DNA from: Laccaria trichodermophora | Lineage: Eukaryota; Basidiomycota; Agaricomycetes; Agaricales; Hydnangiaceae | NCBI GenBank assembly: GCA_018417955.1 | Contig: JACTVC010000039.1 | Location: 248,001-312,000 of the forward strand | Length of the DNA stretch: 64,000 nucleotides | Reading direction: 5' to 3' | Shown: positions 23,283 through 51,465 of the stretch, in pieces | Layout of the letters: each line of letters begins with the position of its first letter | How positions within the stretch are numbered: position 1 is the stretch's first letter | The notes under the pieces: generated by a model | Database searches by the model: none | What the model was told of the DNA's origin: nothing | The model's input: only the letters and a program-made list of their open reading frames with translations | Program-made: the position numbers and the translations under genes

Positions 23283-26200
23283 ATCGCGGCGGTCCATCTC
23301 CGTCTGACTTTGTCTGGGGCATGGATTTGGCTTTTATCTTCTTCTCTTTCTATTCTCCACTCACACCTTATTTTCCATATGAGGTGGGCCGACTCTGATA
23401 CAATAATCATGTACAGGTGGTCTTTTCCTTTTAGCGTCCTTCCTTTATCGTCCTGGAATGCGGGGAGCCCACATCCCAGTACTGTTCCGAGCGTAGGGGC
23501 ATTTAGTGTTATTCTCTTTTGTTTCAGGATATCTCTTGCTAGCATTCATACTGTCTGCTGGCCTGAGGCAGGGCACTCAGTGAGTATATGTTCCATAGAC
23601 TCCTCTCCTTCGCATATCATGCACTTAGCTCTATGTTCGAAGTTTGCTATTTTCGTCCAGTAGGCACCGCATCTATAGGCATTGTGCATGGACTTCCAGA
23701 GGTAAGCTCTAGCTTCTTTGTTGATGTTGCGGTTTTTAATTGATATCCAGATCTTTTCGTCTGTAGGCAGGATGCCGGTGCTCCCTTCTATCGCGAACCT
23801 CGTCACATCTAGGTTTATTGTGGTGCCTCTCCTGGTGGGGGCGGTCTGCTGTTGGCGTATCCCTCAGTATAGCAGTGCTTGCATCATTTGGCAGAGCTTT
23901 GCTCCCATGATCTCGAACATCTCTGGCCTTGCGAGGTTTATTTGTTCAGGGTCTGTCCGGGCGCTTCCTTCCTTTGCCAGTTTTAGTGCGCATTTGATTT
24001 CTTTCTTTTTTTGAAGCCTCAACCAGGTTTGACCACCTCTTTTTGTCATTAGGGCGAGGCACGTCATTAAGATGTCGCTGTTGGCTATTCCTATCCATCC
24101 CCTGTCTTCCCAGTCCTGGGCGTGTCTTGCAAGACCTTCTATTATCGGCCGTGAGCTGGAGTTTATACAGATGTTTGAGCCAATTGGGCATGTTTGTAGG
24201 GTCTGAAGAACCATCGCTAGTTCAGCTCCACTAGTGGTCTTGATTTTGGTGGGCAACCTAGTCGACCTATTTCGGGGGTCCTCTTGTCCGAACCAGATTC
24301 CCCCCCCTGCCTGTGCATTTTCATTGCCTTTGTTTATACAGCTTCCAGCAATGTATATCTGGGTTACCACGTTTCCTTCACTTATGGCCTGCTCTCTTAT
24401 TGCCGGTGAAGTAGGGGCTGTCTTATGGTCTTTGACAAAGAGTCTGAAACCTTCGGTTACCGATTTTGTTGTTATATCAGTGTCGAACAGTTCTGCATTT
24501 TCGTTGTTTGGTTCTTCCCTTTGGGGATTGACCTCAGGATCAGGGGGATGTGCGTCGGGGGGGTGGGCATCTGGGTTCCACATCGGTGGGAGCATGCCTA
24601 GCATTTTTCTTGCAGCATCTCTGCATTTCTTAGCATGCTTACATCCTTCTAGTCTACTTTCTTTGCAGGTCTCACAGGCGCAGTTGCTTCTTCTGCTATG
24701 GTTCAAAGTCTCTTTATCGATAAAGTCTTTCATTTGGCCCACTGTTAAGATGTGGTGATTCTCTCTTTGGCATTTGGCCCATTTATCGTTATTGGGGAAT
24801 CTACTTCCTTTTCCCATGCTGATGTGGTGCCATATGGGCATTGATCTCTTAGTTTCTTCATTCAAATGAACTGGCCTGAAGCATGTGCCGTATTTGGCTG
24901 CTGTTTTGATCATCTTACTCAGCATTTGTGGTAATTTTCCTTTACTCCTCGTAGATGTTGCCCACGTTTGTAGGAATGTGTTGGCCTTGGATGCCTCGTC
25001 AGTTACACGGTGTTCTTTTGGGATGTTGTTTGCTATGATTTCATCTGCCACAATTGCCCACTTTGGCCTTTGTTCATCCATTTGTAGGTAGGATTTAGCT
25101 TTCATCAGCTCAATGGCTTCATTTCTGGAGATAATGTCCAGCACTTTTTTCCCTCCTTCCTTATGTGTCAGCCGGTAGGTTTCTTGTCCTATCATTGGTT
25201 GCAGGCCTTTGCCCATGAAGCTTCGTATTTTCTTTGTCATCCAGTCCTCAACCTCAGGGGGCATTCCTTGTACCCTGGTTAGATACTGTGTGCGTCCTCC
25301 AATTTCCATGCTAACAATAAGGCGTCTTCCATCCTGTGTGGGGTGGGTCCTATCCCACCTGCTGAGGCTGGTGTCTATTTTCTCCTTTACTGGTGTCCAT
25401 ACATTTATTTGGTCGACTCCATTTCCCACGAAGGCTCCAAGCACTCTCATGGGCTCTTTTTCTTTTGCGATGTGTATGTTCACAGGGATCTCTTCATGCC
25501 CATCTCCTAGTTTCCTTGTACTTATAAGTTGTTCTCTATATTGGGGAGAGCCAATGGGGATGATTTCAGTTTTTTGGACATTGAATTTGGCTCCTGAGGC
25601 TTTGCACCATTTCCTTAGTATCTTTTCCAGGTCAGTGAATCTGTCCTCTTCTGACAGGTAGACAGTAGTATCATCTGCAAAGAGTGATGCTATTATGCGT
25701 TCTATTTGGCCTTTTATATGGACGCCTTTTAGCTGGGAGTTTCTTAGCATGGTGGCCAAGGATTCTATTGCGATGTTAAAGAGGAGGCATGACAACGGGT
25801 CTCCCCACCTGACGCCTCTTATTATTTTGAAGGGGAGGCTTATTTCCCCATTTATTATTATGACAGTATGTGCATCTTGGTATAGGGCTTTAACTGTGTT
25901 TATGAAGTGTGTCGGTAAACCAAACTTTTCTAGGGATTTCCATAGGAATTCGTGTGATATTTTGTCATATGCCTTTTCTTGGTCCAGGCACACTATAGCT
26001 CCATTTATTTCTTCAGTTTCACACAGATTTATTAACAGCTTTACTAGGTCGGTTTGATTTTCTATTCTTCGTCCTTTCATAAAGCCAGCTTGGTCCATAT
26101 GTATTATATTAGGTACTGCATCTGTGAGTTTTGTTGTTAGTGCGCATGTCATAATTTTGTAGTCTGCATTGAGCACCGTGATGGGGCGATAGTTGCTAAT

Positions 26201-28483
26201 TTCTGACTTGTCATTTTTCTTGTATATAGGGCACATCCAGCCATCAGAGAACCCTTCGCCCACTGCTATACCTTCTGTTTCAATGTCGTTGAATACTTTT
26301 GTTAGTGTTTCAACTGCATTGAAGGTTGGTGACTCATTGTCTTTGGTTGCTTCATGCATTTCTGCTAGTTTGCTCCAGAGTTCATGCGGCAAGCCATCTA
26401 TTCCTGGTGATTTTCCATTTGGTAGCCTCCTGATTGCCTCTTTGACGTCACTTAGGGTGATCTTTTTAGCAAGCTTAGCTTTTTCTGTTTGGAGTATTGT
26501 GATGTTTATTTCCTGGAGTATTTCAGCCATTGCCGGGCCCTCATTTTGTGCATCTGGCAGCTCTAACTTTTGTAGGTCTTCATGGTATTTTTTTGCAATC
26601 TCTGCCATCTTATCTGACCTACTTTCATATTCAGGGGGGTCAGATCCTGGGCGCCGCAGCTTAGTTAGCATATCCCGGGTTTTGCATTCTTTGCCCATGG
26701 CCATCCAGGTTTTCCCGATTGTTTCTGCTTCCAGTAGGCATTTTGTAGTCACATTATCTCTTTTCCTGGTGTGCTTAAGCTTCTCTAGGGCTCTTATTTC
26801 TACCTTGAGTATGCCCGCAGTTGTCATTTTGGATTCTGGCTCCATTGAGGCATTGTTTAGTATGTTTTCTAGCATGGCTTCCTTCTTTTTTATCTCATTT
26901 TGTAATTTAGGGACATATTTTCTGGTGAAATCCCTTGCATATTTTGCTAGTGACTTTTTGAACACACTGAACAATGTTTGTGGGTTTTTACTTGGTGAAC
27001 GTCTATGTTTGTTGCATTCAAGGTCATCTTCTAGCTTCTTTCCCATGTTTGATATTTCTTCCATTACTTCTTTTTTGTCCAAGAGGAAGGCGGGGAAGGC
27101 CCATCTTCCTTTCCCTATGTAGGGGGCACCGGGGTTGGAGAACTGGACTGAGACTAGACTATGGTCTGTGTCTAGTCCTGCTTCTTGGATCAGCCAGCTT
27201 TCACTGCAGCTCCATACTGCATCAGTGGTGTATATCCGATCAATTCGGGATTGTGACCCAGTGGCTTTTTGGAGGTATGTGTGTGCTATTTTATCAGGGT
27301 GCTGTTGTTGCTGTTGTTGCCAACCATCTGAGAGCTCAAGAGCTGACTTTAAGTTGTCTAGTTCTACTGTGCATTGGTTAGGGTCTTTCCTCATAGGCAT
27401 TCGGTCTAGTTCGCTTTCTACCATGTTGAAGTCCCCTAGCATAACATCAGGTCTAGGGAGTCTATTTTCTTCCCAGTGTCTGTTCAGCTTTTCCCAGAAG
27501 GCTGCATTTTCATCATATGCATTTGGTGCATAGATTGCAAGGATGTTTATTTTAGAGCTGTTGTGCCAGGGGAGCTCCAATAGGAGTGCCCTTCCAGCAA
27601 TGACAATATGTGTTTTCACTTCTTTCCATAGTGTGAAATTTTTATTTATTATGAAGGCGATGCCTGCACGTGCACTCGGCTGACCCATATCTTGGGAGTT
27701 TATTATAAGGAGCCTTTTTTGGAATTGTTGGTTTAGCTTTTCCTCTAGTTCTGTGGTGAGGTGTGTTTCTTGTACGGCTAGGACACCTATTCAGTTGTCC
27801 CTCATAATCTGGTTGATGTGCTGCCATTTGTCTTTTGTTCCTTCTGATCCTCCCCCTCTCATGTTGAGGGTTGCTATTTTGATGCTAGCTTTTACTTTTT
27901 TGTTTCTAGAGGGCCTGGGAGCATTATTTGTGGTATTCAAGTTCCTTGCACATGGTCTTTGTCTGTTGTTTCCATTATCTCCAGTTCTCGTAGTATTTTG
28001 TGATACGTAGTTTCTTGCTGCGCCATTTCTTGGCGTATAGCCTGTGCGGCTTTCTCGTTCATGAGAGGACGCGTCAGCTAGGTTGTACCCTTGTTGACGG
28101 TTTTGCCCATCACCTAACTCTCTGGTTCCTTCATTGGGGAAAGAAACGACAGGCAGATTGCTACCCCCTTGAGATCCAGAGAGGCCAATAACCGATACCA
28201 AGTCATTTACCGTAGTCATAGTGGGAGCAGATGTATTTGTGAAGGGAGTGGTTGGTATACGCTTGCCAGTCTACAACCATACACTGGGGCGGGTGACCTT
28301 GCCCAGGTTACCAGGGGGGACTATGCCATAGATACTTATACCTAAATGATATTGGGCCATATAGGTCTTTTCTCCATAGCTTAAGCTTCTCAGCACGGCT
28401 TGTCCAACCTAAACAGATTTCCATTTGCATACCCTGGGGGTATAGCCCTCCCTGAAAGCTTTCCTGTAACCTAATTGGCCAGT

Positions 28484-28488
28484 GTATT
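28484..28488. repeat. Target-site duplication GTATT (left) of LTR element 1
   Basis: GTATT directly before the left LTR is repeated at 39218-39222 directly after the right LTR. Confidence 0.9.
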
Positions 28489-28856
28489 TGTGAAACCGTA
28501 GGGCGATTCGGGACTTCTTGACGAAGGCGTGAGTGCGAGATGGCGGCGGAGAATATCTGGGGTACGCGGGAGAGAGATAGTAAAGTGGTGCCGCGAGGCG
28601 ACACCACGTGAAGGATATCCTGTGACCCAGGAACTGGGGCGCGGTCACCCGGCGCAGGACTCTTGTATCCCGGAGGGGAGGCATAAGGCTGCCTAGCCGT
28701 ATAGAAATGGGGTGACTCCGTCCACATGTAATGTATAATGTGGTTGCAAAGTGAGTATCTTTGTTGTGAATGCAACGCTATACAGAGTAGGGATAAATAC
28801 AAGTAAATACGATGATTCTAAGTCACGCATGGAGTATGTACTACCACACCGTTACA
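28489..28856 (-). repeat. 3' LTR of element 1
   Basis: 368 bp, TG...CA ends, matches 38850-39217 without a difference that I could see. Confidence 0.92.
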
Positions 28857-28867
28857 AAGCCCCCCCG
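28857..28867 (-). other. Polypurine-like tract of element 1
   Basis: CGGGGGGGCTT on the minus strand directly abuts the 3' LTR, the place expected for a plus-strand primer. The same form (GGGGGGCTT) is found in element 2. Confidence 0.55.
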
Positions 28868-29728
28868 TGAGATTGGAGCATCGTTTCTATAGCGTTGCCC
28901 ATAAACTTGAGTTTTCGATCTGTCTCTTGCTCCTCTTTTGCTTTCTTGTAACCGACGGACAGGGTTGCATGGTTGCCCAACGTCTCTCCATAGTTGATCC
29001 TTCATTAACATCCATGATTGTGGGTCGTTTGTCATTTTTTATACGGCTGCATGGGGTCCGTCTCCGTTGGCTTAGTAATTTTAGGTCGCTCGTCCGGGTC
29101 AAATCAGGTAATTCAATCAGCCTGGAAGTTAAGACAGTAGGTCGGGATGGATGGTTCAGTCTATCTGTTACGATATCTGAAGTTAGTGATGGTAGAGGAG
29201 ACCAGGAGTAGTTGGCCAGAGGAGAAAGCAGTTTAAGCGGAAGTCTTGTTCTTCGTAAAGTCCTCGTTAGTAATATGGTCGGTAGTAATGTGATCTTGAC
29301 TAGAACAAGCAAGGTATATGCTTCCGACTCCGCCACCCAGGCATGAGGGTAGGACTATATAGTGGTATTGGCGACCTAGGCTGCAGCGTCATAGTGTCTC
29401 CTATATGTGGATCGTATTTTGCATATAGCTTGCAGGATGCTGTGCATGTTACTTTCGCGCTCATGGGCAGCGAGACATTATGCAGTAACCCCGTAGTTGC
29501 GAGAGTGTGAGTAATGGATGCCAGTAGTGGGGTGACTAAGGTTATGTCGCTAGTGGATGAAGGGAGCCTGAAGGCATGAGTTGATGGGTTATGATAGCGA
29601 GAGATAGGAAATCGTTTGGGAGGTGGAGAATAGTGCTCAGATAGAGCTGGTGGTCGGTGACCAGATTGAGGGGAAGGGCACCCAGCACGATGATGGAGTT
29701 CCAGCAGAGACGGGGTATTGGGGGAGTT
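28868..29728 (-). other. 3' untranslated interior of element 1
   Basis: About 860 bp between the stop of the giant ORF and the G run. Only short frames are seen. Confidence 0.5.
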
Positions 29729-32700
29729 TCAAGGTTGTCGTAGTCCTTGATGTATTGACTTGTGAGTAGATGGTGACCTGACCATCAGGGCTTTTGGCGC
29801 AGATGTGACATCCTTCTGAATTTGTGCAGTATTGAAAGGGCTCAGCCGAGGACAGGTCAGTCGCTCATTCTCTTTACGACAGCCTGGGGCGTGTAACCTC
29901 GTTCGTCGAGCTTGCTTCGTTAATTCCTTCCTGAACCAGAAACTTCGGCCCAATTCGTCGTTTTCTCTGAACATTTGCCTCGGGATCAGTTGCAATCCAT
30001 TTGCTTCAGCAACTACAGCAGCCTGGACAGGCGCGAATTCCCTTGAAACTGGCGTTTTATGGAGCATTAAGTTGAGTGGGAAGGGTTCTAAAGAGTTTGT
30101 TCTGTCGAAATCATTCATTGACTCATTATAGGGCACTTCTCTGCTAGGCGAAGCTTCATTCATTGCTACGTTAGGATTATTTGAGACGGGATGCAGCTCC
30201 ATGCAGCCTGAAACAGTTTCAGTGGCGCGGTCGATGGGGGTCACTAGAGCAGCGTGCAGGTCGCGCTTAAGAGGATAGCCCTTGTATTTGTCAAAGCATG
30301 AGATACTCTCCTTCAAGTATCGTCGTTTTTGGTGTTCTTCCATCCCATTCGGCCATGTATCTAAATGGCAATTATCTATTTCTTCTACTTCGACACACCC
30401 TTGTCTGCGTCTAAGGCCCTTTTGAACCTTCATTGCCCAACTAACGTTGAGCAGGGATCGCTCACAGCATAGTAAGGAGTCCTTGCCCTCGGAAGCGGGC
30501 ACACTCAGGCTAATTCTCTTCCTCCACGAAGTGCTGCATAGCAATTCGGACGAATGGTAGGCATTGCATACCTCACAGGGGCGATTCGTCCCGTTGTCCG
30601 TTATTTGCTTTATCCGTAACGGTCCATCTGCGCAACTGTCATAGGAGCATCCTGCGTCGTGGGTGCCAGAGGGGGCATGTATATTGGTGAAACGAATGAA
30701 CCTAGAGAGATAGACCGGTATAGTCTCATGACACTGTTCTCCTGGGTCTGTCCGATTTAGGGGCAAAGAGTTCATCTCGATTTGATGATTCATTCTAGTC
30801 TCGCTGAATTCATCCTTAACTGCCTTCTCCGAGTCTAGAGGGCTTCTGTGCTTTCCCTCGGCTGCGAGTGGTCTGGTGTAAACCTCTAGGATTTGACTAT
30901 CAATGGCGTCTTCCCATCGCCTTGTAGGGTAAGCGGCCTGGTTAGGTACAGCAGTCGCCCTTATGGGTACACTATTGTTATCCAATGGAGAATTGGTTTC
31001 ATGTCTGGGTGAACGGTGAACGGTGGCAACGGCCCCCCAAGCGACTAGTTGTTGATTGACCCTTTTAAGGACTCGCGCCCATTCTAAGGCTGCGTGATTG
31101 ATGATAAAGGTGTCTCCCTCCCTTTCGTAGTAGATTCCTGCTGATTTAAATGTCCACTTCCCCGAGGCGATTACTTGACCTATTCGCTCGTTGGTTACAT
31201 CTGGCATAGCCCCCCATCCGTTTGTTAGATGAATTTCACATCGCTCCTTGGGTAGCTTATCGACTAATTGAGGCATTTTGTTAACCACCTCCCATACTCC
31301 TTTCGATCTGTTATGGCTAAAGGTTACTTCAAGATCCCTTACTAGTGTAGGCTGGCCTTGTCGTAGTCTGATTCTTGGGGTCAGGTTCAAGGTGCTTGTA
31401 TATAATCGGTAGGATTTATTCGCTATTGGGTGTTCTGGTTCGAGATTATTCGCGCGAGCATCCTTGGTCTGTTCGAGGATAATTATAGAATCCGCGCTCT
31501 GCTGTCGTTCCACAACCCCACTTAGGAGGTCAAGCAGGGGAGTTGTGATCATAGAGTAGGGAGAAGCATGATTTAGGAAATGAATGGCCGTTTCGAAGGA
31601 TATCGGTCGCTGGTTCGATGACATAGGATGAGCAAGGGTCGAGGTAGCTTGCACTTCCTCCTTAAGCGCTAGCCATTCTAATTGCAAGAGTTTTTGTCCT
31701 AATAGCAACACGATTGTGTGACTCCTGTAGTCTTTTATGGGACTTGATACTAAGAATAACCCCGACACAGCTGCGGCTCCTAACAATTTGTCTGGGCAGA
31801 TTGAATGTCCTTTCCCGTCTTTTGAATAGATCGTGAAGTCGAACACGGGTGACTGCAGGGATATAAGATTGAGTAGCATTCCTTCGATCCACCAAGGTCT
31901 TAAGCGGCATCGAAAGACGGTTTTTACTTCAGAGACTTCAGCAGTTTCGAGTCGGATTGACCCTGTTAGGATATCCAACGAAGATGCTTGGGGTCCCTTC
32001 AAAAGCAGTCGACCTGTAGCTTTAAGCTTAGCTGGTTGCGCTTCGTTCGTGGGTTCTGAGGTCGATTGAATATTAGGTAGCGGTGGGGTTTGAATTCGCG
32101 CTTTTACATGTTTTAATCGATCATTCATCTCATAGGCTGCAACATTTCTAGGCCACACTCTAGACGATCCTTCTCTAAACTCGGGGAATGTTTCTGGGTT
32201 AAGGTCAAGTGGCTCGTCTCTGTTCCGCTCTAGAGGATTCTTCGAAAAGGCTGTGATCTCCAATTCCCAGGGGAGGCAGCCCTTGATTCGACCATCATGT
32301 TCCGGGGCAGCTGCTATCAGATACCCCATAATCTCTAGTGTTCTAGGAACATTTGTCTTCATAGCTTCTGCAGAATCTGTCGTCTTACTCAAGAGCTCTC
32401 CTTCTTGGGGTCTGTCAGTCTCAACATCCATGTCATGTAAATGTCCTTTGTCTCGAGGTTTGTCCGTAGTAACCTCTGGGTCAGGCAGATACCCAACTAC
32501 TTCGGGCTTTTTGTCTCGAGGTCTGTCAATCACAACATCCAGGTCATGTAGACATCCTTCGTCTCGAGGTTTGTTCATAGTAACACCTGGGTCGTGCGGA
32601 TACCCAACTGCTTCCCCCCCTAGGACATGCCACGGGAGAAGGCTGGCGACAATGATGGTTAAGGAGGAGGCAATCATTATGTCTTGACCCTCCGTGCCTA

Positions 32701-35700
32701 AGGTAACAGTAGAAGGCCGGATGAGGGCCTCGTTCGAGGTCATGAATTCTGTGTGCTGTTTCGCGCTATCCTTAGGTCTTGCGCGTGCTACAGCCTTCCC
32801 ATGGATGAAGAACCCCGTCGTATACACTGCCGAGATTTCAACTGCTAGATTGCAGTGCCGAGCAGAGGTGGCGAATATTACGCGCCCGAATAACTCGCGA
32901 TGCTCAATGATGAACTTAGTGACACTTAGTTTGCTGACGGTTTGAAGATCCTCGACAGGTTCCATCGTCTTCGCGGAGGTTCGTCCCAAAGCTCTGGAGA
33001 CTAGGGATAGTCCCTTGCTCTTCCTCCTTTCATAACGCCTAATTCTTTGCCAGTCATGGTGAAATGCAAGCACTCGATGATAAGTTGCGACCGGTAACAC
33101 TTTGGTTTGGTCAAAGACTTTGTGCATTTTGACGGTGACTCTATCGCGCTTTATAGCAGCGAACGATCCCTCCGGATTATTCTGAGTTGCGCATGTGACC
33201 CACATGAACAAGCAACGCCCATCCCTTTCTTCAATTTTGTCGGGATCTAAATCTTCGAGAACCTTATGAATAACGTCACGTTTCCTGGAAGGAGGACAAT
33301 TCCAAAGGACTTGTTTGGAGCGGGCATAGATGCACTCCACACACGGTAGGCTGGAGCGTACATCAGAATTGTCTGGTTCAATGGTTGCTCCTTTCCTTGT
33401 TCTGTCATGCAGAAATTCCTCTCTAGTCACGGTTGTAGGCCCCCCAGCCCAGAATAATTGGTCGAAGGGTTTAGCTTCTGTGTTACTAGCGAGGTTCATA
33501 TATCTCTCTTTGTCTGCTTCCCTACTACGGGTGTAGGATTCTCTTTCGTCTTTCGAACTGTTAATTTCTGCATTCATTGCATACGTAGCATGCGAATGAT
33601 TGCTACCGTAGCATAGCGTAGGTCTTTTGTGGTATTCGACCCGCAGCCAGGGAGCTGACAACTCCTTGTGGATTCGGTTGACTGCTAATCGTATGTCCAA
33701 TACGGTAAAACCGAAAGCTCCCTTATTGAAGCTGTAAGTTTGGCCTTGAGCACGTTCTCCACTTATGAAATGGAGTCTAATTCCGGTAATTATAACGTCG
33801 CAATGGTAGGTAAGGAAGGCATGATTCGGAGTTGGTAACGTTTCCCGCCCACGTTGAGCGTAGGAGGTCCTCAATTTCAGACTTAGTTTGCGCAAATGGG
33901 ATGCAGCAGGTGCTCTGGGGCGAATGATGATTCTTGCTGGTTTCGGTGATTGCTGCACAGAACAGCTTTTTGATTCATGAACAGATATAAAATCCGGTAC
34001 TAGAAGGTCCCCAGTTCTTCCTATACTCTGTCTCCTATTTGCAGCAGGGTCATGCGCAAAGTTCGGCCTTAAGGTAGGAGCCGGAGGAGACTTCGAGATT
34101 ATGAACCCTTCCCCTTTCAGTAGACGATGGGACGCCAAAGATTGACACTGCCAGATTCCGAAGGCAGTCGACTCAGTTTGAAGAGTTGTCCGGTTGGGCT
34201 CGATAAGAGTTTCGAAGTCGATTCGGGAGTTGATAAGGAGATGGGAGTGTCGCTTCCTTTGAGCTTGTTCTCGAGTGTGTCTTCGTTTCTGGATCCTTCC
34301 ATTAATTCTTTGAAGTTCTGCCCAACATGATACTTGCAGACACTGAATAGAGAACCTAGTAAGGACCCAATAGTCCTTAATGACTTGACTGCGTAAATAG
34401 GCAACAATCCCTATGAAACCTCTGGGGATTGAGCTATAACACTCCTTTCTGGTCAGTAAATTCCTTATGAAACATTTCAAAAGTACTGTCGGATAATGTC
34501 GTGGCTTGTGGTAGGTAGGTGATAGCTCCGTTTGATCTAAATGAGGGGCCCGTAATTGTCGACTCAGAGGGGGACGGTCATAATTCGATAAGAAGCGATC
34601 CCGTTTTTGTTTGGGAATGTAGTTTGCTAATACTTGTAAGATTCGTTCTATGAATGGGTTTGCCCACACGGCTTTGGGCAATCTATTGCGTTCAGTTCCA
34701 TTGGAGGTTTCGAGTTTGGTAGAAGAGGTAAGAGTTTCCTCGACTAGGCCTACTGGTCGAGGATGGGCCTCGCTTTGATCCTCGCTTTTGATCTCTACCT
34801 CCCACGGACTGTTTGATTTACTACGTGTAAACTGCGTCGTGGCTACAGACAAAGACAGTTCTAACGCGAAGGTTTCTCTGGCAGTTCTGTTAGGTCCAGG
34901 GTTATTTGCACTCCTAATAACTGTAGGCACTTTGTTCGCGCTTCTGCAAGACGCGTGCATTCCTTTCGCACCTATTAAGGCAGCGGGGCAGGAAGACAGT
35001 CTTATCAGGATGGAGCAGTCTATTGGGAGCGGACTTGGTAATACTGTACTCGCTAATGGCTCAAGACCATCTTCCTTATGGGGTGGACCCTGAGGGTCTA
35101 CGCCCTCTTTCTTCATCTTAGCTAGTTCTAATTCCATCTCGAGTGGTCGTGTGATTTGATTAGAGATCATAGTTGTAAGATGTAGTAGTACGCGGTGAGC
35201 CGTATAAGCTTGATCGTAGAGGGATTTCACCAAGACTTGAAGTGTTTGATTCTTCGTTAAAACCATCTGGGACGCTTCCGAATGCGAGTTTCGTACGACC
35301 ACGCAAAGGTCATCGGGACTGGAGCATCCTACTAGGTGCTCACTTCGACAGTTTTTTGTTCGTTCCAGTAGGGTTAGAATGCCAGGTACTGAAGCATCCT
35401 TAGCAGCGGTGAAGATAGGAAATTCGGAAGCATGATTCAACGGTGTAGTAACTGGTTCCATCCGGGTTGGCGGGTTCTTGATGGACCCAGAGCTCCAGAA
35501 TTCTTCCTTTCCAACTTGGCTGCATGAAGACACTTGGGTTTTGTCATTCAGAACCTTGGATTGAGTAGCCGCGCTCGAGGCAGCGAGCCAATTGGTGTCA
35601 GTAAAGGAAGCTTCCTGGGTAATCTTGACGAGGGTCTTTGTATTGAGGTAGTTCCCATGATTCCAAGAGACTGTAAAGCTTGAGAATATTCCCTCTAAGG

Positions 35701-38700
35701 TCGTAACATCTGAGTAGTGGGGACCCCCAAACGCAGGTTCGGATACATTCACAGTATTGCGATTTGTGGGCGAGAGGGCCTTAACGCCCCAAGGGATCAT
35801 ATGAAACAGGGACGAATCCTTTCGCTCTTCTGCCGTCCTTTCTAGCTCCTTTTCCTTCGCAATTCGACTTATTGGGGAGGCTAAGGCTTCATCACTTTTG
35901 ATTCTAGCATGGATGACCGCGCGCAAGGCAGCGAACTGATTCAGGTTGGCCGAGTGGAGTTTCCCAGTAGTTTTGTAGGGGGTCTTTGGCCCGGAATAGT
36001 TCGCGCTCTTGTGAGCAGCGATGGTCAAGGCAGCGACTTCGAGGGGCGTGGGCATTCGTTTCTCGTTTTGCGAGATCCTAGGATTTGGAAATGTTCGTTC
36101 AGGAGCCAAGCTGTCTAAGGAATGGGGACTCATGAGCGCGGGCCCCAATACAGATATGAGGGTGTAGTAGGTGAGGACAATGTTCCCTATATCCCAGAGG
36201 TCCACATGGGGCTCGGTTGAGTCTTCACGCTCTACTGTCACTGTTCCTGGATCACTCTCTCCCCTAATTCGACTTGACGAGGATGCTTGCTTCTCATCAT
36301 TCCGGAACTTTCCTTGAGTAGCTGCGACTACAGTAACAAGCTGTTCCGCGCTGACGGAGGAAGGTCCCCAGGTCTTATTGTCGGAAATAGTTGCTTCTGG
36401 GAGGTTCGCGCTCTTGAGAGCTGCGGTCATTATAGAGTCGTTCGCGCTCTCCGGGGCAGTGAGAATCTTAGTCACATTTTTACCAGGTACGGCCGTTTGA
36501 TTCACGCGTTGGAAGGCTGCAGAATTCGAGGATGGATCTGCCCACCTGAACTTGGACAGCAAGTGCATTTCCGGGAGTGTGTGGTCGGATAGGGGCGAAG
36601 GAATGTTGCCCCGGGGGAGGGCGACTTCAAGGGCATGTTCCTCTTCCTCTGCTACTCCTTTTCCCTTTTCTCTTCTCGGCATTGACAGCGTTACAAGATC
36701 ATGATTAGAGTAGCAGGAGTCACTGACATTGTTTCTCAGGTTATTCGTGCTCTTACAAGTGATGAGCACTTCATTCGCACCCTTCTCTATGGGCACGGGT
36801 ATTGAGTTTGCCTTTTTAGAGGCAGCCCAGTTCAAGAGGGTAGTCGCTCTTGTCCGGTAAGACAAAGGAGTGGTTTGTTGGTGGCCGCCAGGTCTAATCA
36901 GTGGTGGTCGAGGGTGATTAGGGCATTGACGAGGAGGGGAATTCTCATGGACTATAATCGTTTGAGTTGTTGGGGTCCGGAATTTGTCAATTGGGAGAGA
37001 TGACAGTGGACTGGTCGTTAGTGAGGAGTGGACGTTCAGCCGAGTAGCGTCGTCACCCTCGAAAGCAGCGAGATTTCGCGCTAACGAGATTGCTGGGGTG
37101 GTGGCAGATTGACTGACTGGGTCGACAGTCAATTCACCTTTACACAATTGAGAGCTTGTATAGATGATAGGACATTGATGAAATGGGAATTTCTCTGAGA
37201 ATGCGGCCGCTTGGCTCGTCCACAAGAGGAGATTCCGGCTTCCAAGGGCTTGCCGCTGGCAATTCCTCGTGTAACTACTGCGGGCATAGCTTGTGTTGGA
37301 GGGGAGAGTCCGTTCCTTTGGCGTTGTTAGGGTTTTTGGAGGCTGCGAGCCGTTGTCTGCCGTAATCGGGTCATGCTCCTCGAAAGTGGCAGATAATCGC
37401 GTTATCATGAATATCGGAGGCACGATATGGTCATCCGTTGAATTTGGGTGGACACCCTCGAAATCGTCAAGCTTGTGTGCTAACGTGGGTCTAGGAACGA
37501 CATGGTTGGCCTGATAGCCAGCGGTCTTGTCTTCACACAGAGTAGTTGAGGGTGACCAGTCGTCATCTGTCGTAGCCAAGTTGCTACCTTCGAGAGCAGA
37601 GGGTAGTCGCGATGACGAGGGTATGGAAGAAGTAGAGTCGACGCCCGTCGCGGCTAAGTCGTTATCCTCAGAAGCAGCGGGTAAACGCGCTAACAAGGAT
37701 AGGGAGGGTGTAGAGTCGTCATCCATCGTAGCTGAGTCATTACCCTCAGAAGCAGCAACTATTCGCGCTATCGAGGGCATGGGTGAGACTTGGGAGGTTT
37801 GATGGATCGTGTTCTCATCTTCATGCGGCGTATTCGAGGACGAGGGGCTGTTGATCAGCCGAGGGGCGCTGTCACCCTCGAAAGTTGAGAGATTACGTGC
37901 TAACGGAGATTCCGGGTTGGATTGACTGAATGGGTCGTCGATTGGTTCAACTTCGCACCATTGAGGGCTCGTTAGCGTGGGGGACTTCCGGCCTTCAAGA
38001 TCCTCAAAAGCAGCGGGTATCAGCACTAGCATAGGTTTGGGAGACGTGGAGTTGTCATCCGTCATTTCCGAGCTGTTGCCCTCGAAAGCGGCGGGTATTC
38101 GCGCTATCGAGGGTACAGGGCTACCATGAGTGGGGAAATCAGGTTCAGTGTCAGGTTTTTCCGTCATCGGCACCCCCCTCTCCTTTTCCCTAGTCCTTAT
38201 CAGCGCTACGATTTCGTGACTGGAAGAGTGATTGGAGTTGCAGAATTCGATTCTATGGCGGTCGTCATTGAAAGGGTAGGTTGTCCATTTTGTCGAGTAG
38301 AGTAACGAGGTGGTCCGCCCACAGATGCCTGGTTTAAACGGCGGCGGTTGGTGATTAGGGCGATGACGGGATGGGGATTCTTCAGGGGATATCACCATTG
38401 AGCTTGTCTGCGAGGGGAAATCCCAGCTTTCAAAGTCCTGATAACGGCAGTTTTTCACGCAACTGCGATGGGCATAGCTTGTGTTGGTTGGGAGAGATTG
38501 AGTCTTTGACGATGTCGGGGTTATTGAAAGCCTAGAACCGTTGTTCGTCGTAGCCGAGTTGTTACCATCGAAAGCAGCGGGTATTCGCGCTAACGTGGGC
38601 AAAGGCGATACAGAGCCGTTGCCCTCGAAAGCAGCGGGTATTCGCGCTAACGAGGGTGTGGGAGCCTCGAGCGAGACGTGGTCAACGGTTTTCTCACCAG

Positions 38701-39088
38701 TGTTAGGTTTTAGGTTTACTTGGGAGTTGGAAGGTCTGGAAACTGTCGTGAGTTGACAGGAACTGTCAATCAGACTTGCCTTATCTAGTTTCTCTGAGCT
38801 TCTGCGCTCACGGACTTCATCTTGGTGAAGTCCGCGGTGCCCCCACCATTGTGAAACCGTAGGGCGATTCGGGACTTCTTGACGAAGGCGTGAGTGCGAG
38901 ATGGCGGCGGAGAATATCTGGGGTACGCGGGAGAGAGATAGTAAAGTGGTGCCGCGAGGCGACACCACGTGAAGGATATCCTGTGACCCAGGAACTGGGG
39001 CGCGGTCACCCGGCGCAGGACTCTTGTATCCCGGAGGGGAGGCATAAGGCTGCCTAGCCGTATAGAAATGGGGTGACTCCGTCCACAT
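29729..39088 (-). CDS. Giant ORF of LTR element 1, about 3,119 aa, function unknown
   Basis: An uninterrupted frame from the first in-frame ATG (39088, inside the 5' LTR) to a stop at 29729. The frame is open even further upstream, to 39163. The N-terminal third is Ser/Thr/Pro-rich with repeats of the type LARIPAAFEGN (variants IARIPAAFEG, LARNLAAFEG, ARLPAASED). The middle carries repeated SAN tripeptides (ESAND, KSANY, RSANK). A short repeat with GYLPDPEVTTDKPRDKG follows. Near the C-terminal third there is CEVCNAYHSSELLC, a near zinc-knuckle (C-x2-C-x3-H-x5-C). No DTG/DSG protease, YxDD, RNase H or integrase HHCC/DDE was recognised. A frame of this length cannot persist by chance at this base composition, so it is translated or was until recently. 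A structural, gag-like role is possible but unproven. Confidence 0.75.
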   Translation of the reverse strand: MWTESPHFYTARQPYASPPGYKSPAPGDRAPVPGSQDILHVVSPRGTTLLSLSRVPQIFSAAISHSRLRQEVPNRPTVSQWWGHRGLHQDEVRERRSSEKLDKASLIDSSCQLTTVSRPSNSQVNLKPNTGEKTVDHVSLEAPTPSLARIPAAFEGNGSVSPLPTLARIPAAFDGNNSATTNNGSRLSITPTSSKTQSLPTNTSYAHRSCVKNCRYQDFESWDFPSQTSSMVISPEESPSRHRPNHQPPPFKPGICGRTTSLLYSTKWTTYPFNDDRHRIEFCNSNHSSSHEIVALIRTREKERGVPMTEKPDTEPDFPTHGSPVPSIARIPAAFEGNSSEMTDDNSTSPKPMLVLIPAAFEDLEGRKSPTLTSPQWCEVEPIDDPFSQSNPESPLARNLSTFEGDSAPRLINSPSSSNTPHEDENTIHQTSQVSPMPSIARIVAASEGNDSATMDDDSTPSLSLLARLPAASEDNDLAATGVDSTSSIPSSSRLPSALEGSNLATTDDDWSPSTTLCEDKTAGYQANHVVPRPTLAHKLDDFEGVHPNSTDDHIVPPIFMITRLSATFEEHDPITADNGSQPPKTLTTPKERTLPSNTSYARSSYTRNCQRQALGSRNLLLWTSQAAAFSEKFPFHQCPIIYTSSQLCKGELTVDPVSQSATTPAISLARNLAAFEGDDATRLNVHSSLTTSPLSSLPIDKFRTPTTQTIIVHENSPPRQCPNHPRPPLIRPGGHQQTTPLSYRTRATTLLNWAASKKANSIPVPIEKGANEVLITCKSTNNLRNNVSDSCYSNHDLVTLSMPRREKGKGVAEEEEHALEVALPRGNIPSPLSDHTLPEMHLLSKFRWADPSSNSAAFQRVNQTAVPGKNVTKILTAPESANDSIMTAALKSANLPEATISDNKTWGPSSVSAEQLVTVVAATQGKFRNDEKQASSSSRIRGESDPGTVTVEREDSTEPHVDLWDIGNIVLTYYTLISVLGPALMSPHSLDSLAPERTFPNPRISQNEKRMPTPLEVAALTIAAHKSANYSGPKTPYKTTGKLHSANLNQFAALRAVIHARIKSDEALASPISRIAKEKELERTAEERKDSSLFHMIPWGVKALSPTNRNTVNVSEPAFGGPHYSDVTTLEGIFSSFTVSWNHGNYLNTKTLVKITQEASFTDTNWLAASSAATQSKVLNDKTQVSSCSQVGKEEFWSSGSIKNPPTRMEPVTTPLNHASEFPIFTAAKDASVPGILTLLERTKNCRSEHLVGCSSPDDLCVVVRNSHSEASQMVLTKNQTLQVLVKSLYDQAYTAHRVLLHLTTMISNQITRPLEMELELAKMKKEGVDPQGPPHKEDGLEPLASTVLPSPLPIDCSILIRLSSCPAALIGAKGMHASCRSANKVPTVIRSANNPGPNRTARETFALELSLSVATTQFTRSKSNSPWEVEIKSEDQSEAHPRPVGLVEETLTSSTKLETSNGTERNRLPKAVWANPFIERILQVLANYIPKQKRDRFLSNYDRPPLSRQLRAPHLDQTELSPTYHKPRHYPTVLLKCFIRNLLTRKECYSSIPRGFIGIVAYLRSQVIKDYWVLTRFSIQCLQVSCWAELQRINGRIQKRRHTREQAQRKRHSHLLINSRIDFETLIEPNRTTLQTESTAFGIWQCQSLASHRLLKGEGFIISKSPPAPTLRPNFAHDPAANRRQSIGRTGDLLVPDFISVHESKSCSVQQSPKPARIIIRPRAPAASHLRKLSLKLRTSYAQRGRETLPTPNHAFLTYHCDVIITGIRLHFISGERAQGQTYSFNKGAFGFTVLDIRLAVNRIHKELSAPWLRVEYHKRPTLCYGSNHSHATYAMNAEINSSKDERESYTRSREADKERYMNLASNTEAKPFDQLFWAGGPTTVTREEFLHDRTRKGATIEPDNSDVRSSLPCVECIYARSKQVLWNCPPSRKRDVIHKVLEDLDPDKIEERDGRCLFMWVTCATQNNPEGSFAAIKRDRVTVKMHKVFDQTKVLPVATYHRVLAFHHDWQRIRRYERRKSKGLSLVSRALGRTSAKTMEPVEDLQTVSKLSVTKFIIEHRELFGRVIFATSARHCNLAVEISAVYTTGFFIHGKAVARARPKDSAKQHTEFMTSNEALIRPSTVTLGTEGQDIMIASSLTIIVASLLPWHVLGGEAVGYPHDPGVTMNKPRDEGCLHDLDVVIDRPRDKKPEVVGYLPDPEVTTDKPRDKGHLHDMDVETDRPQEGELLSKTTDSAEAMKTNVPRTLEIMGYLIAAAPEHDGRIKGCLPWELEITAFSKNPLERNRDEPLDLNPETFPEFREGSSRVWPRNVAAYEMNDRLKHVKARIQTPPLPNIQSTSEPTNEAQPAKLKATGRLLLKGPQASSLDILTGSIRLETAEVSEVKTVFRCRLRPWWIEGMLLNLISLQSPVFDFTIYSKDGKGHSICPDKLLGAAAVSGLFLVSSPIKDYRSHTIVLLLGQKLLQLEWLALKEEVQATSTLAHPMSSNQRPISFETAIHFLNHASPYSMITTPLLDLLSGVVERQQSADSIIILEQTKDARANNLEPEHPIANKSYRLYTSTLNLTPRIRLRQGQPTLVRDLEVTFSHNRSKGVWEVVNKMPQLVDKLPKERCEIHLTNGWGAMPDVTNERIGQVIASGKWTFKSAGIYYEREGDTFIINHAALEWARVLKRVNQQLVAWGAVATVHRSPRHETNSPLDNNSVPIRATAVPNQAAYPTRRWEDAIDSQILEVYTRPLAAEGKHRSPLDSEKAVKDEFSETRMNHQIEMNSLPLNRTDPGEQCHETIPVYLSRFIRFTNIHAPSGTHDAGCSYDSCADGPLRIKQITDNGTNRPCEVCNAYHSSELLCSTSWRKRISLSVPASEGKDSLLCCERSLLNVSWAMKVQKGLRRRQGCVEVEEIDNCHLDTWPNGMEEHQKRRYLKESISCFDKYKGYPLKRDLHAALVTPIDRATETVSGCMELHPVSNNPNVAMNEASPSREVPYNESMNDFDRTNSLEPFPLNLMLHKTPVSREFAPVQAAVVAEANGLQLIPRQMFRENDELGRSFWFRKELTKQARRTRLHAPGCRKENERLTCPRLSPFNTAQIQKDVTSAPKALMVRSPSTHKSIHQGLRQP
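32094..38649 (+). repeat. Dispersed TTCGCGCT octamer in element 1
   Basis: At least eleven copies of TTCGCGCT on the plus strand, near 32094, 32759, 34935, 36000, 36403, 36439, 37073, 37751, 38098, 38583 and 38641. In the coding strand (AGCGCGAA) it is read in one frame as A-R (LARIP repeats) and in another as S-A-N. The shared unit is therefore the DNA or RNA word and not only the peptide. Confidence 0.7.
38824..38848 (-). other. Primer-binding-type site of element 1
   Basis: On the minus strand the sequence begins TGGTGGGGGCACCGCGGACT, one base after the 5' LTR. It starts with TGG as expected for pairing with a tRNA CCA end. The identical 25 bases occur at 60957-60981 next to the LTR of element 2. 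Confidence 0.75.
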
Positions 39089-39217
39089 GTAATGTATAAT
39101 GTGGTTGCAAAGTGAGTATCTTTGTTGTGAATGCAACGCTATACAGAGTAGGGATAAATACAAGTAAATACGATGATTCTAAGTCACGCATGGAGTATGT
39201 ACTACCACACCGTTACA
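38850..39217 (-). repeat. 5' LTR of element 1
   Basis: 368 bp, matching 28489-28856. It contains the first in-frame ATG of the giant ORF. Confidence 0.92.
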
Positions 39218-39222
39218 GTATT
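39218..39222. repeat. Target-site duplication GTATT (right) of LTR element 1
   Basis: Matches 28484-28488. Confidence 0.9.
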
Positions 39223-39437
39223 TGGGCAGTCAGAGCATCAGAGTACCGCATTTTGGGCTTCTTAGTACTCCTCGTGTCCCTTCATTGAAGTTGCTCCCAG
39301 TCCCGCAACCAGGCAGCTGGACACTAGCTATAGCGACATTTAGATGTATATGGTCTTGACAACAGGGGGTACAGGTCATGATATAAGGGGGTGCAGATTA
39401 CGATGATAGGGGGCATAGGTGGTAGGTCTACATGTAT

Positions 39438-45498: not shown

Positions 45499-48213
45499 AT
45501 GGCGTCGACAACACCAATTGTCTCCCAGCCACAGGTAGGACTACTCAACAATTCACATCTCCACAATATCAACGGTGGAACCTTCAACAACGTCGCCGGT
45601 GATTCACACATCAACAACTCGTTTGTCGATTCCTCCACAAATCGTGTGTCCCCTCATGGTATCACTCTGATGAATTCTTAACCTTCTAACGTCCACCGAT
45701 AGCATTCAAGCGTTTACACAGCTTCATCGCAGCTGGCGCCATGCACGATTCAAACGAGCGCTTCCCACAGCCCAAATGCCACCCATCCACAAGGGAAAGG
45801 GTTCTTCAAAGAATTCTCAACTGGGTTGAGAGTGATTCATGTGAAAGGATACTTTGGCTCTCTGGCTCAGCCGGCACTGGAAAGTCAGCAATCGCACAGA
45901 CCGTATCAGAATGCTGCAAGCAGAACGGCCGCCTCGCTGCCACTTTTTTCTTCTTCCGCACGAGCTCTGAACGGAACACAAGCGAGCGCCTCGTTGCCAC
46001 TCTCGCCTATCAAATAGCTCTCTTCGTTCCCGGGGCGAAGGAATTCATTGTGAAGGCGATCGAGGATGACCTCTCCGTCTTCAGCAAAGACATAAACTCA
46101 CAGCTTTTCCAGCTCATCATCCGCCCCCTCACCCTCGCCGCCCAAGGCTGGGATTCGACTCAACAGTTACTTGTAATCATTGACGGATTGGATGAATGCG
46201 TTGACAAGAGACAGCAAACAGATATTTTGAGTGCGATTTGCAACGCATTCATGAACCATGAACTGCCCCTACGCTTTCTCATTTGTAGCCGCCCAGAACA
46301 CGACATTCAAATGAGGTTTCAGCGGTTTGACCTGCGGTCTGCAACTGCCTGTCTTGTTCTTGATATGGACAACACAGTGACACAAGATATCGCAACCTTT
46401 TTGGAGGCGGAGTTCTCACGAATTCACCGAGAGGAGCGCATACAAGAAACGCCATGGCCCTCAAAAGGCGCCATTCAATCTCTAGCTGAGAGAGCAACTG
46501 GACAGTTCATCTACGCATCGACCGTCATCAAGTTTATCGATGATCGGAACTTCCAACCTCAACAGAGGCTTGACATGGTTCTGGGGACTGTTGCGTATGA
46601 AATGTTCTCGCCATTTGCAGAACTCGATCTCCTGTATATCCAGATTCTGGATGCTGTGCCAGTTTCCAAGGTTGAGAAAACTCTTCTTTGCCTTGGGGTA
46701 ATCATTCATCTCCATGACTATCGTTCATTGGTCAACGGCGAATTCGTGATTGATTTGAAATTCCTTGATCAACTGTTTCAAATCAATTCTGGAGGTGTTG
46801 ACCACCTTCTGAGGGAGTTACATTCTGTGTTGGATGTTGAGGAAAACGTTGCCATCCGCCACAAGTCATTCTCGGATTTTTTAAGCTGTAAAACTCGGTC
46901 AGGCAGATATCATATCGACGAAGAAATTTCACGCGCAGAAATTTCTGGGCGTTTTTGGGCGATTCTTCCACAACGGTTGAATCGGTCTCGCAATGCGAAA
47001 TATAACATGTCTCGTTCTCGTATGTGGTTGCTAATATTCTGCGCCAACATAATGATGACACAGTCATTATTAGCCCTGACAGTAATCACGCAGCACTGGA
47101 GAGATTTACTTCCAGAAAGCAGACATGCAAAAGCAACCCTTCGAGAGTTGGCTAATATTGCCGATCTTTTAGAAAAGAAAGCTTCTGACGCCCCTTACGG
47201 CACGATTTTTCATTATCTTGGCATTGAAGAGTTGTCTGATTTCTACCCAACTATCATCTCCTGGCTATCCGAAGAAGTATGTGGCTTGTTATTTACCTAT
47301 CTGTCAGGCTGATGTCCTGTGCAGAAATTAGATGAACAGAATCCCATTTTACGGAAGCAGTATATTTCACTTTTTGACAAGGATATATTGTCTCTCCTCA
47401 AGCGGGTTGAGTTTCTTGATCCTATCCACTCCATCCATTTTCTTGCCTTCAAGCTTCCCTGGATCATTGATGGTTTTACTTATGTTGGCATGCCTGACCA
47501 CTCTGAGGTCTTCTTTGGTTTTTTCTCGGATCCTAGCAGATCTGGAAAGTATCACCTTACTCCACAGCATCATGCTGACATAGTGGTATGGATCATTCAG
47601 TACCACTATCCTCTCCCAAGGGATATACTTGTGCAGCGGTTCCAGTGTGAGGCTCACTCGGATTTGGAAAGGCTGTCAGATGATTCAAGGATTCAACCCT
47701 TGGTTATTCCAAATGACATCCATCTATTTCATCTATCTCATGCTTCTCGTTGTGCGGAACAACTGATTGAGATTATTCGTTTTCACAATCCTGACACATT
47801 TCCTTTAACGGCCCAGGAGGTGCGTGGCATTGTTATTATTCAACATTACATTTAATTGATTTCCAAAAAGTACAGAATTGAAAAAGCCTTGACTCGGGAG
47901 TTTCAAGAACAATACAGGGAAAAGGTCAGGAAAGGGATAGCAAGATACTTATTGGTGTGTTGTATCATTATTGTCCACTCTCCATTCAGTTTTAGAGTGC
48001 TTACACATCCAATTACAGGACAACAGCCAGATGTACGGAGAATGGCTCGCCGTCAAACTTGAAGAAGACAGAAAAATCCAATCTTCCCTCACTCACAAAT
48101 TGGGGACGGTTCCATTGCTTCATGTCGGTTGCTACCTCTTCATCCTCGCGGTTTATTTCAAGTTCCAATGGGTACTCTTCCCTTTGCCGGATCCCCGCAG
48201 TTGCTCCCCGTAG
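45499..48213 (+). CDS. NACHT-domain NTPase, NLR-like protein (intact paralogue)
   Basis: 835 aa from exons 45499-45658, 45703-47276, 47325-47819, 47871-47954 and 48019-48213; introns are 44, 48, 51 and 64 bp. The N-terminus (HNINGGTFNNVAGDSHINN) is the short leader seen in many basidiomycete NACHT proteins. It is followed by LHSFIAAGAMHDSNERFPQP and Walker A GSAGTGKS (about residue 110). Walker B is LLVIIDGLDEC. The helical middle includes GQFIYASTVIKFIDD. The C-terminal exons carry KYRIEKALTREFQEQY and a hydrophobic segment PLLHVGCYLFILAVYF that could be a membrane helix. No WD40 or ankyrin repeats. The fourth exon uses a weak AAAAG acceptor, so the last two exons are less sure. It is nearly colinear with the copy at 61763. 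Confidence 0.85.
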
Positions 48214-50448: not shown

Positions 50449-51465
50449 ATGGCACAAATCCTCACCACCGTGCAGATCATTGATCTCTACGATATCGCTC
50501 TTTTGCTCAATTATGAACGTGCAGCTACTGAACCTCGGTTCCGACATACGAAGCTGAGGGAGGTCGTGCAGAATGAGGAATTCAAGACTATTCGGATGCT
50601 CACACACGAGTGGCGTATTAATCCTAGCAACAAGCAGAAAACGGGGTTTGTGTTCGATAGATTACCGCCTTATTCACCAGGGGACGACGACGACCCTTCT
50701 GCACCCCCCGATTTACCCTCTACGATGCTTGCCCCTCGAGACCCTTATTGGGCAGCCCAACCCGACTTGTCGTACTTGACTCCATTCCAATTGGAGACGT
50801 TTTATTGGCAAGCGAGGAATCACGACGCGTGCTATAAATCCGTCACCCTCATCCAACATTTCTTTGCGCTTTTCCCACCTGATACGCAGGTGAGGGTACG
50901 TACGGAAAAGGGGAGGGAGTACCTCGTTTCTGCGAATTTGAGGGTGATTATGGAGATGAAGTTGCTCAAGCCGAGAAGGGTGACGCTTAGTTGTGTGTTA
51001 CCGGGGAATATGACGTATATTACGGGAGGGGAGGAGGTGATGGATCATGCTGTTGTTGGGTTTCCTAATCCTAGTGCTAAGGCGGGGAAGGAGGAGGAGG
51101 CGGGGACGATACTTGATCTTGCGTCGTTGCAGTATGGGGATGTAGGTCGGGGATGTGGTGGGAAGAGTTTGTTCGTTTTGGAGGATATTGATGCGTATGC
51201 GAAGAGGTTGGACAAGTTTGCAGAGGGGAATACGTTTGATGAAGCGAAAGTGTCGATGGCGATTGGGGGATCGCCTTGGGATGGGTGGTTGAAGAGGGTG
51301 GCGGAGAGGGTTAAGGATAGATGGGTTAAGAGGGAGGGCTGGTGTGGGCATTGTGGGAAGCCTGGAGAGTTGAAGAGGTGTTCGGTGTGCAAGGATACTT
51401 TTTATTGCGATGGTTTACATCAGGCGGCGGCGTGGGCGTATCATAAACGTTGGTGCAAAAAGTAA
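50449..51465 (+). CDS. MYND zinc-finger protein, intronless
   Basis: 338 aa in a single exon, unusual among its intron-rich neighbours. The last 40 residues form a MYND-type zinc finger: CGHCGKPGELKRC, CKDTFYC and then H, H and C (QAAAWAYHKRWC). MYND domains usually bind proline-rich peptides. The N-terminal 290 residues have no recognised domain; they include an acidic patch (SPGDDDDPSAPPD) and a basic stretch. The start codon lies 48 bp from the divergent ADE8 start, and the stop 14 bp before the next gene. A true start a few codons downstream cannot be excluded. Confidence 0.85.
   Translation: MAQILTTVQIIDLYDIALLLNYERAATEPRFRHTKLREVVQNEEFKTIRMLTHEWRINPSNKQKTGFVFDRLPPYSPGDDDDPSAPPDLPSTMLAPRDPYWAAQPDLSYLTPFQLETFYWQARNHDACYKSVTLIQHFFALFPPDTQVRVRTEKGREYLVSANLRVIMEMKLLKPRRVTLSCVLPGNMTYITGGEEVMDHAVVGFPNPSAKAGKEEEAGTILDLASLQYGDVGRGCGGKSLFVLEDIDAYAKRLDKFAEGNTFDEAKVSMAIGGSPWDGWLKRVAERVKDRWVKREGWCGHCGKPGELKRCSVCKDTFYCDGLHQAAAWAYHKRWCKK

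Follow-up and report, generated by a model that had tools for sequence, protein, structure and literature searches.

An intact long open reading frame (ORF) is ordinarily read as the sign of a useful protein, and an element with long terminal repeats (LTRs) in the genome of Laccaria trichodermophora raises the question of whether such a frame can be kept open for another reason. We analysed a stretch of 64,000 nt (contig JACTVC010000039.1, positions 248,001 to 312,000 of the forward strand), hereafter the window, in which this element occupies 28489-39217 on the minus strand and carries a single frame (29729-39088) that spans 3,119 codons and a stop. An earlier note had described it as a recent LTR insertion with no recognisable pol, and had taken the apparently intact frame to suggest that the protein is selected. 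Comparison with relatives in the same genome points to a degenerate Gag-Pol, and suggests that a frame of at least 3,000 codons stays open even though the amino acids encoded in it are almost free to change.

The recent insertion was borne out: the element has the paired LTRs, target-site duplication (TSD) and primer-binding-type site (PBS) of an LTR retrotransposon. Both LTRs (5' LTR, 38850-39217; 3' LTR, 28489-28856; minus strand) are 368 bp long and identical in sequence, read TGTGAAAC...GTTACA on the plus strand and are flanked by the TSD GTATT (28484-28488 and 39218-39222). The PBS, TGGTGGGGGCACC (38836-38848, minus strand), starts at 38848 and is directly followed by a strong, near-palindromic hairpin (38811-38834, minus strand), a fold predicted in those leaders that were folded, autonomous and non-autonomous alike, and a candidate packaging or dimer signal. 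The purine tract preceding the 3' LTR, which the earlier note had listed as in place, is present as a candidate G7 (28860-28866, minus strand), but it is weak and followed by CTT. The frame is uninterrupted, as had been stated. Counted mechanically from a TTG it comprises 3,144 codons (29729-39163, minus strand), and 3,119 from its first ATG (39086-39088), which lies inside the 5' LTR, 240 nt upstream of the PBS; from there the frame reads through the PBS. Stops in the other two minus-strand frames of the interior number 194 and 195. The two alternative frames of the ORF itself are stop-rich: they hold 182 and 190, where base composition predicts 144. A composition poor in stops therefore does not account for the open frame. 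The N-terminal half of the ORF contains eight diverged 60-nt repeats (37037-38662) with LARIPAAFEG-type units, a region in which relatives likewise give repeated matches, and a 111-bp tandem duplication, in frame, is located at 32409-32614.

What the protein is did not emerge from profile searches. The window protein had no match in Pfam (E up to 10) or PDB (E up to 1), and nothing was found at E 0.01 in a large protein database (7,985 candidates scored). To that extent the absence of recognisable pol stood, but pol could be recognised once the protein was set against an autonomous element from the same genome, which comprises 59 Mb in 77 contigs. Matches to reverse transcriptase (RT) in this genome fall within single open frames as long as 2,970 codons (best 150 of 247 candidates). 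In the autonomous element L055, Pfam identified RT, RNase H, an integrase zinc finger, a Tf2-type SH3 domain and a chromodomain; the integrase core scored under the cut-off, and gag and protease models had no match even there. The best database match of the L055 pol is a Hypsizygus marmoreus protein (70% over residues 1740-2894). By blastp, the window protein is collinear with the L055 ORF, starting at the LTR and extending as far as RNase H. Homology comprises an N-terminal region (residues 88-352; 38108-38902; 7e-31) and three remnants supported by both blastp and alignment: a Gag-position remnant, so labelled from its position (residues 1766-2069; 32957-33868; 3e-17), a protease-to-RT remnant (residues 2071-2379; 32027-32953; 2e-32) and an RT/RNase H remnant without catalytic blocks (residues 2388-2816; 30716-32002; 1e-55), all on the minus strand.

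The loss of motifs was judged by eye in an alignment of the window protein and three other copies (C23, C5 and C77) with the autonomous protein. The block bearing DSGAD, which we take to be the protease-type motif, is absent from the window's protease-to-RT remnant and from the other three copies, at one shared junction in all four. The capsid-position block is mostly gone in all four; its edges coincide in the window protein and C5, and those of C23 and C77 differ. Deletion or substitution has also removed what we presume to be the YxDD of RT, the aspartate motif of RNase H and the motifs of integrase; YxDD is absent, too, from a piece of C34. Pfam gave no RT, RNase H, integrase or chromodomain in the window protein, though matches exist in L055, whereas C5 retains a weak RNase H profile match (E 0.0077, below cut-off) that was not seen in the C77 and C23 pieces scanned alongside. 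The window element thus lacks the protease, RT YxDD, RNase H, integrase and chromodomain of an autonomous chromovirus (Ty3/gypsy). Collinear Gag-Pol homology and the PBS and LTR ATG in common mark it as derived from a chromodomain Ty3/gypsy element, with a 3,119-codon frame that represents the former Gag-Pol frame after enzyme loss. The degraded pol domains whose discovery the earlier note had said would count against its reading were in this way found, through the autonomous element, and the over-grown gag that it had considered is too simple a description of a protein aligning at E 1e-55 over the RT/RNase H part.

The element belongs to a lineage whose copies are young. All 40 scored candidates of a genome-wide LTR search matched (best 40 of 188), which is a lower bound. 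Thirteen other copies were fetched at full length, and the ten checked for TSD and LTRs (C10, C36 and L071 stood outside this check) all have a 5-bp TSD; their LTR pairs differ at 0-5 sites and are identical in six. The leader pattern around the PBS, with up to 3 mismatches, was found at 97 places (reversed control, 0). RT lies 3.5-9 kb downstream on the same strand at no fewer than 26 of them, and elements without RT account for at most the remaining 71. Identity to the window LTR is about 89-99% in non-autonomous LTRs. Of 13 autonomous copies, 12 show partial matches to it, with 70-88% identity in each matched stretch, and one, L070, does not match; the TTTCACA end and the PBS are found in all 13. 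The LTR ATG lies at the same distance from the PBS, 240 nt upstream, in 21 of 25 LTR ends of both kinds, several of them near-identical copies; among the other four, the ATG lies at -261 in one and at -243 in another and is missing from a third, and the fourth, L055, is a cut duplicate of L057. Since young enzyme-less copies exist and RT-bearing elements share their PBS, we infer that the lineage is non-autonomous and mobilised in trans by a chromodomain Ty3/gypsy helper. LTRs of the diverged non-autonomous lineages (window, L050, L052, L054) are about 90% identical, compared with about 78% for the aligned ORF sequence of the window and C23.

The frame has been kept in much of this lineage. 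It is open over its whole length in six of seven close copies, the window included, and C5 has 3,290 codons ahead of a stop. In the sister pairs C23/C4 and C10/C77 the breaks are private to single copies, which indicates that the source copies were open. A further genome search, with the C-terminal half as query (best 31 of 392 candidates), left 21 places after removal of nine with listed RT and of C23:2258441, which aligns like those; open frames reach at least 3,000 codons in 10 of them, at least 2,000 in 13 and at least 1,000 in 20. Twelve of the 21 were read, C34 in part, the nine others including C30, C24, C18 and C9. With costly gaps (gap cost 25/10; eight comparisons), all 75 aligned blocks begin in the same frame; gap length is divisible by three in 68 of 86 gaps, and in 23 of 39 at an intermediate cost. 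Neutral simulation at the distance of the window and C23 gave about 59 expected nonsense events (37-79, 200 runs) over 2,101 codons; none occurs among the codons compared, all of them from stretches open in both copies. Internal breaks disregarded, the distance from the frame end to the 3' LTR is about 0.5-0.9 kb in the window element (872 nt), C23, C4, C10 and C77.

The amino-acid sequence behaves differently. In a pairwise codon model, in which comparisons share copies and are not independent, the ratio of replacement to silent rates (dN/dS, or omega) was 0.91 for window-C23 (2,101 of 2,708 aligned codons kept), 0.84 for window-C5 (1,366 of 2,649) and 0.91 for C23-C5 (1,560 of 2,558). Further comparisons (15 usable of 16) gave 0.76-1.29, and a separate set of four with C34 gave 0.86-1.26. 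The fit for C10b-C77b, with zero silent changes, was degenerate and left unused, although it still enters the median of 0.93 over 16; C10a-C77a, with almost no divergence (dS 0.004), says little. Between lineages dN is about 0.27-0.55, and the frame is not lost. In chemical terms, replacements look random (z -1.36, -0.05 and -0.85), whereas those of one autonomous pair are conservative (z +10.6). Autonomous elements of the same genome are strongly constrained: dN/dS is 0.003-0.068 in all 21 comparisons of RT pieces, most of them saturated, and 0.055 (0.072 unfiltered) for L055-L056, saturated at dS 2.4. One of the 21, the autonomous pair L079-L081, chosen because of that saturation, has matching divergence (dS 0.26) and the same transition bias (kappa 7.3), and gave about 0.07. 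Along the frame, dN/dS shows no departure from 1 in 39 of 46 bins, and two bins within residues 2401-2800 lean above it (1.39 and 2.00; likelihood-ratio test statistic (LRT) 3.5 and 3.8).

Differences among the seven close copies, each site counted once, comprise 36 silent, 61 replacement and 3 stop-type changes (p 0.33), with 4.7 stops expected. One stop-type difference, at residue 376 of C7, sits in a patch of compensating indels, and the C7 frame is open; the other two are both in C11. An apparent synonymous excess in these copies disappeared once window-specific changes were counted one time per site. With the frame kept, dN/dS at about 0.9 and replacements at random, selection appears to act on the frame and hardly on the amino-acid sequence. 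The earlier inference from the intact frame therefore holds for openness and largely fails for the protein, and the comparison of copies that the earlier note had recommended gave a dN/dS near 1 in frames that are not broken everywhere.

We incline, with some reserve, to regard the element as a trans-mobilised chromovirus derivative whose old Gag-Pol frame is kept open as a pass through RNA quality control. The start codon lies within the LTR, so translation would begin unavoidably, and the frame passes through the PBS and the leader hairpin, both common to RT-bearing elements. Translation would in this way be tied to required cis elements, and its loss would cost sequences that a parasite of a helper must retain. 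A ribosome stopping early would leave a 3' untranslated region (UTR) of kilobases and expose the RNA to nonsense-mediated decay, or to failed packaging or handover to Gag. Only RNA translated to near its end would survive decay and then be copied by the helper, and each round of copying would filter for open frames and leave the amino acids unfiltered; the frame would be a pass rather than a protein-coding gene. The position of the frame end, close to the 3' LTR, agrees with a prediction of this mechanism. The cause of the openness, a need for translation in cis, we infer from the evolutionary footprint of the copies. It is rather likely that translation as such is the selected trait of this long-lived retroelement lineage, in which host RNA quality control would preserve the 'gene' and not a protein function.

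A number of observations weigh against this reading. Other non-autonomous LTR elements, terminal-repeat retrotransposons in miniature (TRIM) and large retrotransposon derivatives (LARD), exist without long frames. Several frames are broken: the 3,420 codons of C23 follow one early stop, located beyond the codons that were compared, and three stops at other sites interrupt its sister C4; C10 has one stop (its sister C77 has one frameshift, at a different site); C11 has stops at residues 355 and 3086; C36 has a stop, a frameshift and another stop; and the short, pol-less L071 is cut by three single stops into stretches of 264, 1,529, 161 and 142 codons, all in one frame. With cheap gaps (blastn), 29 of 95 gaps in three pairs are multiples of three (window-C23, 16/38; window-C5, 10/44; C23-C5, 3/13), which is no excess, and 0.9-3.9% of aligned bases are out of frame; the cheap one-base gaps are taken as alignment noise. 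The codon model used codons from windows in which nucleotide identity reached 60% or more and dropped the rest. Some constraint was also detected: of the first three pairs only window-C5 differs from 1 (LRT 5.3, below 1), as do three of the 15 further comparisons (LRT above 3.84, all below 1), one of ten sliding windows of window-C23 (0.64, LRT 6.4) and seven of the 46 bins (each below 1 with an LRT above 3.84); residues 1901-2400 contain five of the seven. Omega is, in addition, significantly below 1 in the N-terminal part in two of 15 pairs. There is weak residual amino-acid constraint around residues 1901-2400.

The strongest competitor, which we nevertheless hold to be rather improbable, is that translation in cis serves packaging or localisation, ribosome-bound or freshly translated RNA being passed to the helper Gag, rather than escape from decay. 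The same data would fit, namely a kept frame with a nearly free sequence and a start codon and leader hairpin in common with the helper, and a precedent may exist, to judge by its title, in coronavirus defective RNAs (van der Most et al. 1995). Such a need is hard to reconcile with openness across 9 kb and not merely near the 5' end. A little less probable again is a function of the protein itself, which would then be a long scaffold or decoy, under loose constraint and perhaps disordered. The seven bins below 1, with the weakly conserved patch at residues 1901-2400, the repeated LARIPAAFEG-type units and the well-conserved N-terminal part with its two significant pairs would favour this explanation; the replacements, which are not conservative, and the 39 bins without departure from 1 do not. 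In the N-terminal part, moreover, silent sites are conserved too (dS 0.05-0.18, omega 0.34-1.84), which fits the LTR, PBS and leader signals and looks like cis constraint.

That these are recently dead Gag-Pol copies, too young for stops to have gathered, is very improbable. The identical LTRs mark the window copies as young and the close-copy differences look neutral, but the lineage comparison contradicts it, given the dN reached between lineages with the frame still kept and the number of nonsense events expected in window-C23. A host-derived cargo, which the earlier note had considered, or a captured gene would be in keeping with the missing Pfam and PDB matches, but is contradicted by the collinearity with the autonomous Gag-Pol and hardly deserves credence.

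The Agaricomycetes chromoviruses, represented here by L055 and L056, resemble the element in LTR end, PBS, leader hairpin, ATG in the LTR and a single, collinear Gag-Pol frame through the PBS; unlike them, it has lost the catalytic motifs and its dN/dS is about 0.9 versus 0.003-0.072. LARD, TRIM and TR-GAG elements are non-autonomous, retain LTRs and PBS and are thought to be mobilised in trans, as is proposed here. Of these, LARD and TRIM lack coding capacity and TR-GAG has retained a gag domain, whereas our element has its full-length degenerate Gag-Pol frame open: the long non-coding interior of a LARD, as we understand the term, is replaced by 3,119 codons, and the intact gag domain of a TR-GAG, likewise, has no Pfam counterpart in the window protein, nor in L055. 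Non-autonomous Athila elements of Arabidopsis are also pol-less LTR elements with intact ORFs and continuing amplification, and their ORFs are, according to the authors, under purifying selection (PMC2410132); in the window lineage amino-acid constraint is nearly absent. In Rous sarcoma virus, premature gag stops lower unspliced RNA through Upf1, exposing genomic RNA to decay as in the case proposed here, and the long 3' UTR is handled with an RNA stability element (PMC2925335), whereas the window lineage keeps its frame open to near the 3' end. Coronavirus defective interfering RNAs, judged by the title cited above, may be the closest functional analogue, although they belong to an RNA virus and the present case is a genomic LTR element on an evolutionary timescale.

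No published LTR element with such a mode of selection was recognised among titles and abstract beginnings, a coverage that mostly excludes subscription journals. Direct measurement here told openness apart from amino-acid constraint, and the matched control came from the same genome. If the mechanism is true, such elements would be natural sensors of nonsense-mediated decay, and the giant frames of some non-autonomous elements would be explained. It would also be a warning for annotation pipelines that an open frame alone does not amount to selection for its product.

The neighbourhood contains other features. About 0.8 kb from the element, a 1,274-codon ORF (23864-27688, minus strand) encodes a reverse transcriptase domain (RVT_1, 2e-34) and is perhaps a LINE-type retroelement. 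Three ORFs encode NPHP3_N/NACHT NTPases (1348-3585, 45741-47312 and 61972-63435, plus strand); NLR-like NACHT genes are common among agaricomycetes. A MYND finger ORF is located at 50449-51465 (plus strand), and a 22-bp tandem repeat lies immediately outside the element at 39352-39413.

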